A stretch of DNA of 64,000 bases, taken from a bacterium (Candidatus Blackallbacteria) CG13_big_fil_rev_8_21_14_2_50_49_14 (GTDB lineage: Bacteria > Cyanobacteriota > Sericytochromatia > UBA7694). The stretch spans positions 124,001 to 188,000 of the forward strand of contig PFGG01000041.1 in assembly GCA_002783405.1 (NCBI GenBank), given 5' to 3'. Under the pieces are notes generated by a model that saw nothing but the letters and a program-made list of their open reading frames with translations, ran no database searches and was not told where the DNA came from. The position numbers were made by a program, and so were the translations under genes. Of this stretch, positions 54,975 through 64,000 are shown in pieces (within the stretch, counting starts at the first letter, position 1; each line of letters opens with the position of its first letter).

Positions 54975-57900
54975 CTAAGCCTGAACTTCTGCAACAGATT
55001 CCTGACTGTTGGCAGAAGCTGCATCGGCACGGGCATCGGCGACAGATTTCTGCTTACGCAGCAATTCATCGCGCATGGCTTTGGTGCGCATGCCGGTTCC
55101 GGCAGGAATCAAACGTCCGATAATGACGTTTTCTTTCAAACCACGGAGCCAATCGCGCTTGCCTTCGACCGCGGCTTCGGTCAGAACGCGGGTGGTCTCT
55201 TGGAAAGAGGCCGCTGAGATAAAGCTTTCGGTATTCAGTGAAGCTTTGGTAATCCCCAGGAGAATCGGCGTATATTCGAAGGATTCGGTCACCAGACCCA
55301 ATTCTGAAATACGTTTCTTTTCTTGAGCAATACGGGTTTCACTGACGATTTCACCCGGCAGGAAGGTGGTTTCACCTGGATTCTCAATCCGGCACTTGCG
55401 TGTCATCTGGCGCACAATGACTTCGATGTGACGGTCATTGATTTTAACGCCCTGTGAACGGTAAACCATTTGAACGCCATCGACGAGGTAGCGCTGTGCA
55501 GCCGCCACGTCTTTGATTTTCAAAAGTTCATGTGGATTGACAGAACCTGTGGTGAGACGATCGCCGCGATGAACTTTCTGGCCCACAGAAACCGTGGCTG
55601 AGGCGGTATAAGGAATTTCAAGCGAATGCTCGGCTTCCACTTCTGCGCCCATTTTGACGCCCCGAATTTTGAGGGTGGTCTTGTCGTCATCACGAATCAG
55701 ATCGAAGACTTCACCTTCATACTCGGAGAGTACGGCGGTTTCTTTGGGTTTGCGTGTTTCAAGCAGTTCTTCAACACGTGGCAGACCCTGGATAATATCC
55801 CCGGTTTTCATCTGCTCGTAAGCCAGAACGGCAACGACTTCGCCTTGACGCACCATGCTCTTGTCGGTGAGTACCAGGTGAGAACCTGGGCTGACCAGAT
55901 TGGGACGCGCCTTGCGGATCGTGACCAGATTTTTACTGACTGCAGTGACGATACCTGTTTCCTGAGCCGTGATGCCTTCAGCAATTAAATCGCCGTCGAA
56001 GAGTTTATCGCCTACAACAACAGCAGCTTTGCCACTGATATCGTAGTGACGCTCATGTTCACTGGTCAGCAGCATCATGCGGAAGACGCCGGAATTTTCG
56101 TCTTCATAGACGTGAATCGTACCGTCAGCACGCACTTTGTACTTGGTAGAAGCCACTTTGGTACGGGGGGTGACCATTTCGCCGTCTTTGACCAGGGGCT
56201 CGATATAGATTTCGATTTCCTGATAATCGGGCAGGAAGGTGCCTCTCATGCTGCCTTTCTGGCCTGAAAGTGCTTCTGTAGAAGACAGATTCAGGAAGAA
56301 AGTGCCTTCTTCTTCGGGATTGGGAATCAGATTGACACGGCCACCGAGGGTCACCAATGAACCGAGCAGTTTGAACTGCAGTTCAATCCGGCTCAGCGCA
56401 GAACCTGCTTTGATCCGGTCGCCCTGACGGTGCAGCAGGCGGGTGACGGTTTCGAGACCGATATTATCGGATTCGCGTTTGACGTTGAAGAAGTTTTCGC
56501 CCGGTTTGATTTTGAATTTCTCAAAGGGACGAATCACCACGAGGGTTTCGGCCTCATCCACGGGAATCATTTGAATGAAACCTTTGATTTCAGAGGTCAC
56601 GACTTCCATTTCACCAGTTTCAGGATCAACACGTTTACCGACGGTTTTACCCGCTTGAATTACGTGGTTTTCTTCAACCGAAATTTCTGAACCATCGGGG
56701 AAACGATAGGCTACAGCGCCAGGATAGAAGAGCAATTCCTGAGAGGTATCGGGGTCAAAGTTAACAAAGCCGGCTTCTTCGACGAATTCACCTTCCATCA
56801 GTTCGGTTCCAGCAGCTACGGTAGCGCTTTCTTCCAGATAGAGGGTTTTGTCCTTGAGGGGATAGAATTCTTCAAAGAGCAGCAGTACTTCGACTTCTTT
56901 GGTGATCGGTTCTTTTTCATTGATGTCATGAACATAATGAATCACACCATTGCGTTCAACCTTGTAGCGGCTTTCAAAGGCTTTGGCCAGAACCTGGTTG
57001 TTTTCAAGGCGGGTGCCGTCATCCACAAAGAGTTCAAAGTTTTTAACGGGCAGTTCCTCGTCAAGGAAGCGCAGAACGGTTTCAGGGCGGGTCTTATCGA
57101 CCAACGCGCCTTCCAACTGCAGTTCAGCCGTAATAATCGACAGGTTTTTGGTGCCATCTTCATTTTCTACCAATGACACGCGACCGCCATATTCAGTGGA
57201 AGTGCCGATACTGGCGATCGTGGCCCCAGATTTGAGGGTGTCGCCATCTTTGACATGCACTTCGCATTTGGGCGGCATGGAATAGACATCGCCGCTGTAA
57301 ATCCAGATCAGGCCTTCTTTGCCGGTAACGACATTTTCGTCCTGCTGTTTATTGCGGTTTTTACGTTTTTCCCATTGCACGCCATCGTAGACGATTTGAC
57401 CACTGATGGTGGCAGGAACATCTTTGGTTTTGCGTTCCATTGAGCCCCGGCCAAACTTACCGGATTCACGAACGGCAACCGCCAGGAATTCACCCTTGTC
57501 GACTTCCTGTCCATCTTCGACTTTCAGTGCGAAACCAGGCAAGATGGTGATCTCTTTGGCTTTTTTACGGCCTGAGGGCTGCAGGGTCAGCACCATTTCT
57601 TTATCCAGTACCTTGAAGTTTTCACCTGCTTGGGTACGGATATCCACAGTGACCAGATCTTTGGCATTGAATGAAACTTTGCCTTTGTCTGTGGCATAGA
57701 CCTTTTCAGCGGCCCCACCTTCAGCAACCCCCCCTGTGTGGAAGGTACGCATGGTCAGCTGGGTACCGGGCTCCCCGATGGACTGAGCGGCGATAATACC
57801 AATCGGTTCACCACGATCCACGACCCGCTGATTGGTCAAGGACCAACCATAGCAGAGGCGGCAGACACCGAAATGGCTTTCACACCCCATGGGAGAGCGC

Positions 57901-60782
57901 ACATCGATATAGGCGTTCTCTTCGGATTTGCCCTTCAGATAGATTTCAATATCATCGAGCTTATCGGGAGAGATGACTTCATTGCGATGAACAATGACTT
58001 TGCCTGAATCGCTGATGATATCATATCCAGAGGTGCGGCCCACGAGACGGTCAATCAGTTTCAGGTGGGTATTTTCACCTTCTTTGATATCGCGCAGGCG
58101 GAAGAAGTTCTGGGTTTCACAGTCTTCATCCAGAATAATCACGTCTTGCGCCACGTCGGCCAGACGGCGGGTCAGATAGCCGGAGTCAGCGGTACGCAGG
58201 GCGGTATCAACAATCCCCTTACGGGCGCCGTAGGAAGAAAGTACATACTCGGTTACGTTCAAGCCCTCTTTAAAGTTGGACTTGATCGCCATATCGATAA
58301 TGTTCCCGGAAGGATCTGCCATCAGACCGCGCATCCCAATCAGCTGACGGACCTGGGAGATATTCCCACGTGCGCCGGAGAAGGCCATCATATAGACGGA
58401 GTTCAGTTTATTGTCAGGATCGTTTTTATCAATCAACTTGGTCAGTTCTTCAGATGCTTCATGCCAGGTGTTGATAACACGGGTATAGCGTTCAGCTTCA
58501 GTGATATGACCACGTTGGTAGAGGGTTTCTGCCTCGTTGATAATATTTTCAGCACGGCTCAGAATTTCAGGTTTCTTCTTGTTGATCACCAAATCGGAAA
58601 TCGTAATCGATACACCGGCTTTGGTGGCGAAGTGGAAACCTTTGTCTTTGAGGTTATTGGCCAACTCAGCACTCTTCTCGTTGCCATAGATTTTATAGCA
58701 GTCTTCGATCAGATTGGAAAGCTGTTCTTTGCCGAAAGCATAGTTCTGATAGGGCATTTCCCGGGGGAAAAGCTGATTCAGCATCACGCGGCCAGGAGTG
58801 GTACGGATATAGACCAGATCACTCATCTTGACTTCACCGGCTTCTTCAAGGTCTCCCAAGGGGGTGCCATTGAAGCGAACGGTAATGCGGCCATGGCTAT
58901 CAAGGGCTGGCTGGTTGTTTGCATCCAGAACGGCTGCGCCATTCAGATGCACCATCACGGGCTCATCCAAATCAACGCGGGGAACGGGGAAACGCACCAA
59001 TACTTTGGCGTGAATATCCAATTGTCCGCCTTCGTAGGCAGCCAGCAGTTCGTCTGAGGAGCTGAAGACCTTGCCATTGCCGAGCAGATTGGAATCTTCC
59101 TTGTCTGCTTCGGGATTGTCGATGGTGACATAATAGCAACCAATAACCATATCCTGAGAAGGGCTGACCACCGGTTTGCCGGTCGCAGGCAGCAAGATAT
59201 TGTTGGTAGCCATCATCAGCAGACGGGCTTCGGTCTGGGCTTCAATCGAAAGAGGAACGTGTACGGCCATCTGGTCACCGTCAAAGTCAGCGTTGAAGGC
59301 TGTACAAACCAGAGGATGCAATTGAATCGCACGGCCTTCGACCAGAATCGGTTCAAAGGCTTGAATGCCCAAACGGTGAAGGGTTGGGGCGCGGTTCAGC
59401 AGAACTGGGTGACCTTTGATGACTTCTTCAAGAATGTCCCAGACATAGGTGTCTTGGCGTTCAATCAGCTTTTTGGCTGATTTAATATTCTGAACCACGC
59501 CACGTTCGACCAATTTGTTCATGACGAAGGGCTTGAAAAGCTCAAGCGCCATTTCTTTGGGCAAACCGCATTGGTTCAGCTTGAGAGAGGGGCCTACCAC
59601 AATAACGGAACGGCCTGAATAATCCACACGTTTACCGAGCAGGTTCTGACGGAAACGGCCTTGCTTGCCCTCCACGATATCGCTCAGGGATTTCAGGGCG
59701 CGGTTATTGGGGCCCACCACGGTACGGCCCCGGCGGCCATTGTCAAACAAGGCATCCACAGCTTCCTGAAGCATACGCTTTTCGTTGCGGATGATGATAT
59801 CAGGGGCTTCCATTTCAAGCAGACGGTTGAGACGGTTGTTGCGGTTGATCACACGGCGGTAGAGGTCATTCAAATCGGAGGTCGCGAAACGACCGCCGTC
59901 CAACTGCACCATGGGGCGCAGGTCGGGGGGAATGACGGGAATGGCGTCGAGCACCATCCAGGTGGGGTGTGAGCCTGAATTGAGGAAATTCTCAATTACG
60001 CGCAGGCGCTTGATCAATTTGATCTTCTTTTGGCCGGTGGGTTTGTTCTCTTTCAGCTCATGCCAGATTTCTTCTGACAGGGTTTTCAGATCGAGTTCAC
60101 CAAGCAGATGCTTGATCGCAGGGGCACCCATTTCAGCTACGAAGCTGTCTTCGCCATAAATCCGGCAAAGCTGTTCGTATTTGTCTTCTGAAAGCAATTG
60201 TCCGCGTTTGAGCAGCAAACTGGCGGGTTCGGGGGCGTCTTCTTTGGGAGCCGCCGCTTCTTCGCCTTCTTCGTCAGAAACGGCAACAGCCACTTCAGCG
60301 CTTTCACGGATCAGATTGGTTTCTTCCAATACGATATAGGCGTTGTAGTAGGTGACGTCTTCTAGACTGCGCAGGGGGATATCCAGCAAGAGACTGAGGT
60401 AACTGGGGATGCCCTTGAGGTACCAGATATGGACCACAGGAGCCGCCAGTTTGATATGGCCCATGCGGTGACGACGCACCTTGGACTCAGTCACTTCAAC
60501 GCCGCAGCGTTCGCAGATAATGCCCCGGTGACGGACACGTTTATACTTTTGGCAATAGCACTCCCAATCGCGGGAGGGCCCAAAAATCCGTTCGCAGAAC
60601 AGACCGCCCATTTCAGGTTTCAGGGTCCGGTAATTGATGGTCTCGGGTTTGGTAACCTCACCGCGTGACCAGCTCAAAATACGCTGGGGAGAAGCAATGC
60701 CAATTTTGATACAATCGAACGCATCACCCTCATCGCTGGGCTGCTGTCCTTGAGAATAAATCAGAGGTTCGCTCTTTATCAC
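54975..60782 (-). CDS. rpoC: RNA polymerase beta' subunit, unsplit, with large SI3-like insertion
   Basis: A 1935-residue beta' subunit. The N-terminal zinc site is C75/C77/C90/C93, the catalytic NADFDGDQM begins at residue 497, the second zinc site is [11 protein letters not shown], and the trigger-loop start [16 protein letters not shown] is near residue 1010. The trigger loop resumes near residue 1660 ([16 protein letters not shown]), leaving about 640 inserted residues. This insertion contains [22 protein letters not shown] (about 1157-1171) and EYGGRV, which resemble cyanobacterial SI3. E. coli beta' is 1407 residues and cyanobacteria split the gene in two. GTG start, with a weak ribosome binding site. 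Confidence 0.97.
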
Positions 60783-60837: not shown

Positions 60838-63800
60838 TTAACTGCTGATTTCTGTTTCCAGCAGTGAGGTCTTGGCGAACTGTTCTTTCAGTCGCTCTTT
60901 ATACTGGGTCAAGCTGTCTTCAAACAGTTCAACCTCTGTTTCAGAGCCGTCATCGCCAACATGGAGAATCTGGATATCCAAGCCCAGACTCTGGAGCTCC
61001 CGGATCAGTACCTTGAAGGACTCAGGGATTCCGGGTTTCTGAATATTCTTGCCCTTGACAATCGATTCATAAGCCGCGGCACGGCCCATGACATCGTCTG
61101 ACTTGATCGTGAGCATTTCCTGCAGGGTATAAGCGGCCCCATAGGCTTCCAAGCCCCAAACTTCCATTTCCCCAAAACGCTGGCCGCCGAATTGGGCTTT
61201 ACCCCCCAGAGGCTGTTGGGTAACCAAAGAGTAGGGGCCAGTAGAACGGGCATGGATTTTATCGTCTACAAGGTGAACCAGTTTCATCATGTAGATATTG
61301 CCCACGCCGACCTTCTGCATGAAGGCTTCACCCGTACGACCATCATAGAGGGTGATTTTGCCGGATTCCTGTAACCAGTTCCACTCGCTGCGGGCTTGAG
61401 CCTCTGCTTCACGGCGGAAATCTGCTTCAGTTTCCAATTCCCCTTCAGTCATTTGAATGAATTGAAGATGCTCGGGTTTCATGGCCTGCAAGCGGGAGAC
61501 AAACTCTTCAGTCGACTGGGCGATTTTGCGTTCGCGGGCGGCAATCAGCTCATTTTCAACCAACTGCTGTGAAGCCATGGCGCCAAACATTTCGTCGAAG
61601 GGGGTGATTTCCACCATTTCTTCGTTCAGGTCGGCAGCCAGACCCATCAGATATTCATAAATCTGACCCACGTTCATACGGCCCGGAACCCCCAGGGGAT
61701 TCAGAACAATATCAACGGGTTTGCCATTGGGCAGATAGGGCATATCTTCGATCGGCAATACGCGGGAGATAATCCCCTTGTTGCCGTGACGGCCAGCCAT
61801 TTTATCCCCGACAGAAATCTTACGTTTCTGAGCGATATAGACACGCACTACTTTGTTGACGCCAGGGGGCAGCTCATCGCCATTTTCACGGCTGAAGACT
61901 TTGACATCTACCACACGGCCTTTTTCACCGTGGGGAACACGCAGTGAGGTATCGCGAACATCGCGGGCCTTTTCACCGAAAATGGCGCGCAGAAGTTTTT
62001 CTTCGGGTGGGTGTTCAGACTCCCCTTTGGGGGTGACTTTCCCGACCAGAATATCGCCGGGCTCAATTTCTGCACCGACACGGATAATGCCGTCTTCGTC
62101 GAGATCGCGCAGGGCGTCTTCGCCGACATTGGGAATATCGCGGGTAATTTCTTCAGCACCCAGTTTGGTGGTGCGGGCTTCGGTTTCATATTTTTCAATA
62201 TGGATCGAGGTAAAGACATCATCTTTGACGAGGCGACGTGAAATCAAAATCGCGTCTTCAAAGTTATAGCCTTCCCAGGGCATAAAGGCCACGATGATAT
62301 TGCGGCCCAAAGCCAGCTCGCCTTCTTGGGTTGAAGCGCCATCAGCAATTAAATCGCCGACTTTAACTTTCTGGCCCAAAACAACACCGGGTTTCTGGTT
62401 GATACAGGTGTCCTGATTCGAACGGTAGTATTTGAGCAAGTCGTATTGCTTAATATCACCTTTGGTACTTTTTACCCGTACCTTATCAGCGGAGACATAG
62501 ATTACTTCACCTTCCTCTTCGGCCAGTACCAGACTGCCAGAGTCATAGGCTACGCGTTTTTCCAGACCTGTTCCTACCAAGGGGCGATCGGGCAGAACCA
62601 AGGGCACTGACTGACGTTGCATGTTGGAACCCATCAAAGCGCGGTTCGCGTCATCGTGTTCCAGGAACGGAATGATGGAGGTTGCGACGGATACGATTTG
62701 TACCGGTGAAACGCCAACGAACTCTACTTCATGGGGATCGACTTCAAAGAACTCACCGCGGAAACGCACGGGAATCTTTTTAAGCTGGAAGCGGCGTTCA
62801 ACCACTTTTTCGCCTTCAATCTCAACTTCCACATCTTCAAAGCCCAAGTCACCTGGTGCAATATAGTGGTTGTCTTCTTTGTCGGCGGTCATGAAAATCA
62901 GCTCTTTGGTCAAGAGGCCATTGCGTACACGCCAGTAGGGGGTTTCAAGGAAACCATACTCATTGACCTGAGAGAAGGTCGACATGGAATTGATCAAACC
63001 GGCATTGGGACCTTCAGGGGTCTCAATCGGGCAGATACGGCCATAGTGAGAAGTGTGGATATCGCGGACGGCGAAACCTGCGCGCTCACGGTTCAAACCG
63101 CCAGGCCCAAGGGCGCTGAGACGGCGTTTGTGGGTTAACTCAGCCAGGGGATTGGTTTGGTCCATGAACTGAGAGAGCTGCGAAGAACCGAAGAATTCTT
63201 TGATCGAGGCCACCAAAGGTTTGGCATTGATCAGGTTCTGGGGGGTCAGGCTGTCGATATCCTGAATGGTCATGCGCTCACGCACAATTCGTTCGATACG
63301 GGTCAAACCCACGCGGAACTGGTTCTGCAGCAATTCGCCCACTGAGCGGATACGGCGGTTGCCCAAATGGTCGATATCGTCGAGATCGCCCATGTCGAAA
63401 TTGAAGCCCACGAGATAATCGATAATCGCAACAATGTCTTTGTTGTCGAGGGTGCGAACATCTTCAGGGACGTCGAGTTTCAGTTTCTGGTTGATCTTGT
63501 AACGGCCAACACGACCCAAATCGTAGCGTTTGGGATCAAAGAAGCGGCTCTTGATCATCTGTTGTCCACCTTCAGCAGAAGGGGGGTCGCCAGGACGCAG
63601 TTTTTTATAAACTTCAATCAGGGCCTGATCGGTGGTTTCAATTCCGGCTGCCTTTTCTTTTTCAAGCGTGCGCTCGAGGAAATCACGGTGACGGAAAAGT
63701 TCTTTCATTTCCTGGGTTTGATAACCCAAGGCACGTAAAAAGGTGGTAGCGAGAATTTTACGGGTTTTGTCGACACGGATATGAATCAGACCATGGTTGT

Positions 63801-64000
63801 CTGTTTCAAATTTCAGCCAAGCACCCCGATTGGGAATGACGGTGGCGGAGTAAAGTGTTTTACCGCCCGTTTCTGTATCTTCGCGTTTAAAATAAACCCC
63901 AGGTGAACGTACAATCTGGCTGACCACGACGCGCTCTGCGCCATTGATCACGAAAGTTCCACGTTCGGTCATCAGTGGCAATTCACCGATGAAAATTTTC
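60838..64000 (-). CDS. rpoB: RNA polymerase beta subunit, 5' end beyond the window
   Basis: The C-terminal about 1053 residues of beta. The reading frame runs off the right edge; the codons before the first visible TTG read [10 protein letters not shown], matching the conserved region before PLMTERGTF, so about 100 N-terminal residues are missing. The rifampicin-region sequence [19 protein letters not shown] then [14 protein letters not shown] is intact and of wild-type form. The catalytic-region motifs [19 protein letters not shown] and [10 protein letters not shown] are present. It is followed 55 bp later by rpoC. Confidence 0.97.

Follow-up and report, generated by a model that had tools for sequence, protein, structure and literature searches.

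A single-chain RNA polymerase β' subunit with a cyanobacterial-type SI3 insertion in Sericytochromatia

The rpoC gene and its trigger-loop insertion

The window studied here, a stretch of 64,000 nucleotides of contig PFGG01000041.1 (positions 124,001 to 188,000), comes from a genome of the class Sericytochromatia and contains rpoC, the gene for the β' subunit of RNA polymerase (RNAP), at 54975..60782; this gene and all other features located below are on the minus strand. A first-pass annotation, made without database searches, had read the product as a single chain of 1935 residues carrying a giant SI3 insertion of the cyanobacterial type. The gene indeed consists of a single open frame that starts with GTG and runs for 1935 codons without an internal stop, and the insertion, as judged by sequence and predicted fold, is the SI3 of cyanobacteria and not the short type of Escherichia coli. 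These non-photosynthetic cousins carry an insert otherwise known from cyanobacteria and chloroplasts in a β' that is still in one piece. We consider it very probable that SI3 was inherited vertically in this unsplit β', which was never split, and that SI3 came first and was followed by a single split of rpoC on the common stem of Vampirovibrionia and Cyanobacteriia.

The N-terminal half of the trigger loop (17 residues, 57723..57773) spans residues 1004-1020, and the C-terminal half (18 residues, 55758..55811) spans residues 1658-1675; the SI3 insert occupies the 637 residues between them (residues 1021-1657, 55812..57722), where about 640 had been estimated. The NCBIfam model rpoC2_cyan matches residues 678-1900, insert included, with 1046 bits (cut-off, 467) over positions 2-1227 of a profile of 1230. 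The sequence blocks that the first-pass annotation had linked to cyanobacterial RpoC2 are located at residues 1116-1122, 1157-1171, and 1197-1202. In a search of the PDB sequences with a 614-residue query from the insert, there were four distinct matches, all to cyanobacterial RpoC2 (8EMB, 8SYI, 8GZG, and 8H3V; E values of 1e-49 to 4e-40), which span query residues 5-613, and no E. coli chain was found at E values of up to 1.

An AlphaFold2 model of the insert alone (mean predicted local distance difference test score, 86) was compared with solved structures by Foldseek. The closest were the cyanobacterial SI3 structures 9DVS_F, 8EMB, 8GZH, and 8SYI, followed by plastid polymerases, and the predicted fold matches the tail, fin, body, and head of the cyanobacterial-type SI3. 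Cyanobacterial and E. coli SI3 are both built from sandwich-barrel hybrid motifs at the same site of the trigger loop (PMC10802570 and PMC11515920), which would allow the insert to be an E. coli-type SI3 that was enlarged independently by convergent growth. The searches refute this idea, to which we give next to no credence: the insert matches cyanobacterial SI3 over its full length, and the Foldseek E value is 3e-35 against 8EMB, with a template modeling (TM) score of 0.68 normalized to the target, as opposed to approximately 3e-5 and a TM-score of about 0.1 against E. coli chains; Thermus chains are likewise weak matches. The E. coli-type SI3 shares the insertion point and the hybrid-motif class of fold, but it has approximately 170-193 residues (as measured in the outgroups), lacks the body and head domains, and does not match the insert significantly in sequence. 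The insert aligns to SI3 of cyanobacteria and not to insertions of the E. coli type or of another lineage.

Distribution of split and unsplit rpoC

The nearest genome to that of the window is "Candidatus Sericytochromatia bacterium MAG_89" (contig JADMKE010000024.1), which belongs to the same genus and has an RpoC that is 84% identical; the window genome is a member of Sericytochromatia. The class was sampled with 18 genomes from seven families, all of them draft and apparently metagenome assemblies. The gene is unsplit in all 12 genomes with a readable junction (six of the seven families, several projects), and SI3 is 640-675 residues long across them. No rpoC match was obtained in four others (G018, G038, G041, and G044), even with PF04998, and these are counted as assembly gaps rather than as absence of the gene.

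Among Vampirovibrionia, rpoC is split at 37 of the 40 readable loci and unsplit at three (L075, L155, and L156), with five further loci unreadable, and in Cyanobacteriia it is split at all 21 loci read; the class labels of some of these loci rest on tree position and named relatives. The state was judged from the open reading frames (ORFs), not from the length of the open frame, since the open frame of 1872 in G193 hides an in-frame stop and is really 573 + 1294. Another Vampirovibrionia locus, L153, is split into ORFs of 616 and 1233. A scan of named genomes for RpoC yielded at least 47 loci, and the matches listed were only from Cyanobacteriota, with no Margulisbacteria.

The reliance on apparent metagenome assemblies, four of which have no rpoC at all, raises the question of whether the unsplit gene is an artefact of assembly or binning. 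The same architecture is present on a 228-kb contig, on a 455-kb contig of the sister genome, and in independent assemblies from several projects, and rpoB adjoins rpoC in the window. Because independent metagenome-assembled genomes from other groups carry the same unsplit gene, we regard an artefact as scarcely conceivable.

Phylogeny of the core enzyme and of SI3

A core tree was built from RpoB and RpoC without SI3, with nine outgroups, as a quick tree with support from the Shimodaira-Hasegawa-like approximate likelihood ratio test (SH-aLRT). Next to the outgroups, Sericytochromatia (92) form the sister group of a clade (99) that unites Vampirovibrionia (100) and Cyanobacteriia (100), and the approximately unbiased test rejects a clade of Sericytochromatia and Vampirovibrionia (p 0.02). 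The suggestion that the organism belongs to a side lineage of cyanobacteria agrees with this tree and with the identity of its sister genome: the class lies within the larger cyanobacterial clade and outside the pair of Vampirovibrionia and Cyanobacteriia.

When SI3 is analysed by itself, the tree again resolves these three groups (Vampirovibrionia, 99; Cyanobacteriia, 100), and it contains the same subgroups as the core tree. Since the two trees contain the same groups, the pattern is that expected of vertical descent, with no sign of transfer. The insert is the only cyanobacteria-specific part of the gene, and a patch of this kind could in principle have replaced part of an unsplit rpoC if it had come from Cyanobacteriia or Vampirovibrionia, whether through recombination or through horizontal transfer; however, SI3 of Sericytochromatia is nested in neither class, and the core tree likewise unites the three classes. 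We therefore consider transfer very improbable. The SI3 of the window's family (L060, L118, and L120) is on a very long stem of 1.45 changes per column, so its evolution has been much faster than that in the other families.

The linker at the split site

The part of β' that corresponds to the rpoC1/rpoC2 split site of Vampirovibrionia and Cyanobacteriia is a linker of 28 residues in the window (residues 661-688, 58719..58802), and it has the ancestral, unsplit form. The linker of Sericytochromatia is that of an ordinary unsplit β' (N-x-x-x-P-x-x-x-[PKA]-[FY]-x-N). It aligns without gaps to the unsplit proteins of Nonomuraea, Fusobacterium, and Bacteroides in 11 of 11 Sericytochromatia rows, as does the 28-residue linker of the window when it is set against that of Nonomuraea, and its proline is present in every outgroup and in all 11 rows. 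In the split genes, RpoC1 ends in a shared new tail, FN[EK]T[VI][RQ]EA[LI]-stop, which takes the form FNETVREA in Vampirovibrionia and YNKTIQEA in Cyanobacteriia, and RpoC2 starts afresh. The unsplit proteins of L075, L155, and L156 lack the linker proline and have an RpoC1-like tail with extra residues, and for these reasons they resemble products of an rpoC1-rpoC2 re-fusion. L075 is from a Caenarcanales-like genome, and L155 and L156 are listed as Obscuribacter MP5IB2 and Caenarcanales MO_192.B15. An apparent giant rpoB at L156 proved to be a run of masked N.

These three loci, whose relatives are split, indicate that re-fusion happens, and rpoC1 and rpoC2 are usually adjacent and sometimes in frame, so that the split could have been ancestral to the phylum and Sericytochromatia could have rejoined the two genes. 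The scars of the real cases, i.e., the RpoC1-type tail, the extra residues, and the missing proline, are all absent from Sericytochromatia, whose linkers match those of the unsplit outgroups without gaps and whose unsplit state is uniform (12 of 12 genomes, six families). An ancestral split followed by rejoining is accordingly judged very unlikely. Because Sericytochromatia keep the ancestral linker, the split lineages have a derived tail in common, and the unsplit Vampirovibrionia show scars, SI3 is placed before the split. In the sequence of events that we propose, SI3 would have been inserted into the trigger loop and been present in the common ancestor of the phylum; rpoC would then have been split once, on the stem of Vampirovibrionia and Cyanobacteriia; and the split would have been reversed by re-fusion occasionally in the split lineages. 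The first-pass annotation had proposed that a side lineage gained SI3 before the split. The junction comparison and the tree of RpoB and RpoC support the order of the two events; the gain itself is not assigned to the side lineage, since SI3 was already present in the common ancestor of the phylum.

Secondary channel, active site, and sigma contact

Searches with PF03449 and TIGR01462 found GreA in none of the 18 Sericytochromatia genomes, whereas both models detect it in 9 of 14 control genomes. In a sample of 292 genomes of the phylum, PF03449 gave weak partial matches in one family and nothing else. The 13 residues at the start of the bridge helix (residues 844-856, 58215..58253) include V where E. 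coli has F773; the N-terminal half of the trigger loop has V in place of A940, and the C-terminal half has Q in place of G1136. Across Sericytochromatia, residue 773 (E. coli numbering) is V or I and residue 1136 is Q in all sequences, and residue 940 is V. The outgroups retain F773 and G1136 wherever these positions are readable, and V at 940 is also found in Gram-positive outgroups. The substitutions F773V, A940V, and G1136Q are reported to speed up RNA cleavage by the E. coli polymerase (PMC7026648). From these comparisons, SI3, the absence of detectable Gre, and the altered active site all appear to predate the split; since the latter two are present in unsplit Sericytochromatia, the split was not necessary for either.

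In the published structures of cyanobacterial polymerases, the tail and fin of SI3 rest against the rim helices next to the secondary channel, the body and head extend along the cleft, and sigma is contacted by the head (PMC10120043 and PMC10802570). Its fold and homology make it most likely that the SI3 of Sericytochromatia is placed on the polymerase in the same way. The tail and fin would then cover the rim helices of the secondary channel, the expected binding site of Gre-type factors, with the body and head extending along the main cleft toward sigma; the polymerase would work without GreA and depend on an active site that favours RNA cleavage (V or I at 773, V at 940, and Q at 1136). That SI3 occludes the channel, that the enzyme proofreads intrinsically, and that the head meets sigma are all inferred. 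In the cyanobacterial type of SI3, the SI3-sigma arch involves contacts with sigma region 1.2 and the specificity loop. The part of the SI3 head that aligns to the sigma-contact motifs is at 56739..56855, where KD corresponds to K627/D628 and PDTSQ to the region of D665-R668 of Synechocystis. For the Synechocystis pair of D628 and sigma R96, the charges are kept in the window genome (KD in SI3 and K in sigma), and the window's family may form such an arch.

Several observations weigh against the reading given here. The monophyly of Sericytochromatia has an SH-aLRT value of only 92 in a quick tree, and the outgroups are all distant, the nearest sister phylum, Margulisbacteria, not being among them. 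A DksA/YteA-like protein is encoded in 8 of the 18 Sericytochromatia genomes, none of which is in the window's family. At the sigma contact, R668 is replaced by Q and its sigma partner E89 by A in the window's family, so that both sides are changed, and families f2 and f7 no longer have D628; for these reasons, some lineages of the class may have a weak sigma arch or none.

The DksA/TraR zinc-finger proteins are those of G038, G013, G018, G004, G026, G041, G023, and G050 (loci L165-L172), and the three that were sampled match YteA- and DksA-family models below cut-off. The search detected none in the family of the window genome and none among 41 genomes of other classes. As these proteins occur alongside SI3 in several families, a strict exclusion of secondary-channel factors, DksA included, by SI3 is disfavoured.

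Comparison with known RNA polymerases

The β'2 (RpoC2) subunits of cyanobacteria (8SYI, 8GZG, 8EMB, 9DVS, and 8H3V) have an SI3 of approximately 640 residues at the same trigger-loop site, homologous over its full length and of the same fold as that predicted here, and they share with Sericytochromatia the lack of GreA and the hydrolysis-linked residues of the active site. In contrast, the β' of Sericytochromatia is one chain with the ancestral linker, its SI3 is only approximately 25-27% identical in structural alignments, and the sigma contacts are kept only in part. The RpoC1 and RpoC2 of Vampirovibrionia (Melainabacteria), in which GreA was likewise not found in the phylum sample, have SI3 of the same type but differ in being separate chains at most loci. 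Sericytochromatia have the no-Gre trait of the classically defined six-subunit cyanobacterial RNAP but not its split β'. The Type 3 RNAP-β' of Alvarez-Carreno et al. (2024; PMC11515920) has a recursive hybrid-motif insertion in the same domain; this SI3-bearing type is described as two polypeptide chains, unlike the single chain of Sericytochromatia.

Structural papers, including that of Qayyum et al. (PMC10802570), have proposed that SI3 gain, the rpoC split, and Gre loss may be linked and that the split may have eased expression of the oversized protein, and a 2026 paper reported that the split correlates with the elaboration of SI3 (PMC13114784). The enzymes of Sericytochromatia, with SI3 and without Gre or a split, break these proposed links; they correct the literature that ties SI3 to a two-chain β' and fix the order of events. 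Neither an unsplit rpoC with SI3 nor Sericytochromatia together with SI3 is mentioned in the papers found on the subject in the open literature; subscription journals were outside the search. The Synechocystis β'1 and β'2 subunits had to be fused artificially for recombinant RNAP (PMC10120043), and Sericytochromatia offer SI3 enzymes for expression that are unsplit by nature. As a molecular marker, the split together with its linker also groups Vampirovibrionia with Cyanobacteriia. We lean slightly toward the view that the full package of giant SI3, Gre loss, cleavage-prone active site, and partial sigma contact was complete in the ancestor of the phylum before β' was split, the basal classes being non-photosynthetic. 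If this is true, explanations of SI3 or of Gre loss through oxygenic photosynthesis, light damage, high manganese, circadian rhythm, or a need for splitting an oversized gene would be wrong or incomplete.

Other features of the locus

The Pfam domains Rpb1 1-5 of β' follow one another in order, with domain 5 stretched across residues 840-1850, and the catalytic motif (16 residues, 497-512) is at 59247..59294. The N-terminal half scores 946 bits against the NCBIfam model rpoC1_cyan, slightly under its cut-off of 975.9, and the generic rpoC model scores 1644. The N-terminus, which had been said to read like cyanobacterial RpoC1, is therefore RpoC1-like as homology only and not as a member of rpoC1_cyan.

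The rpoB gene is directly upstream of rpoC (60838..64000), with its 5' end past the edge of the window; its entire ORF has approximately 1164 codons (read in G000:C41). In the window, as in the other families with a readable upstream region, rpoB precedes rpoC, unlike in family f3 (Tanganyikabacteria; L063, L064, and L163), where rpoB is not ahead of rpoC and the pair is broken up. The rpoB of L121 (G050) is read as one ORF of 466 codons and another of 654 codons, which share a frame and lie about one codon apart, which reflects either a stop from a sequencing error or a split rpoB. In the complete cyanobacterial genome G065 (L098:7200-7700), rpoC2 is broken within the SI3 tail, with short local repeats and a change of frame; this is probably an assembly error and otherwise a three-piece β'. 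In the N-terminal region of the window's RpoC, an acidic, alanine-rich stretch of low complexity (residues 157-191, window 60210-60314) sits between two blocks that align with other RpoC proteins.

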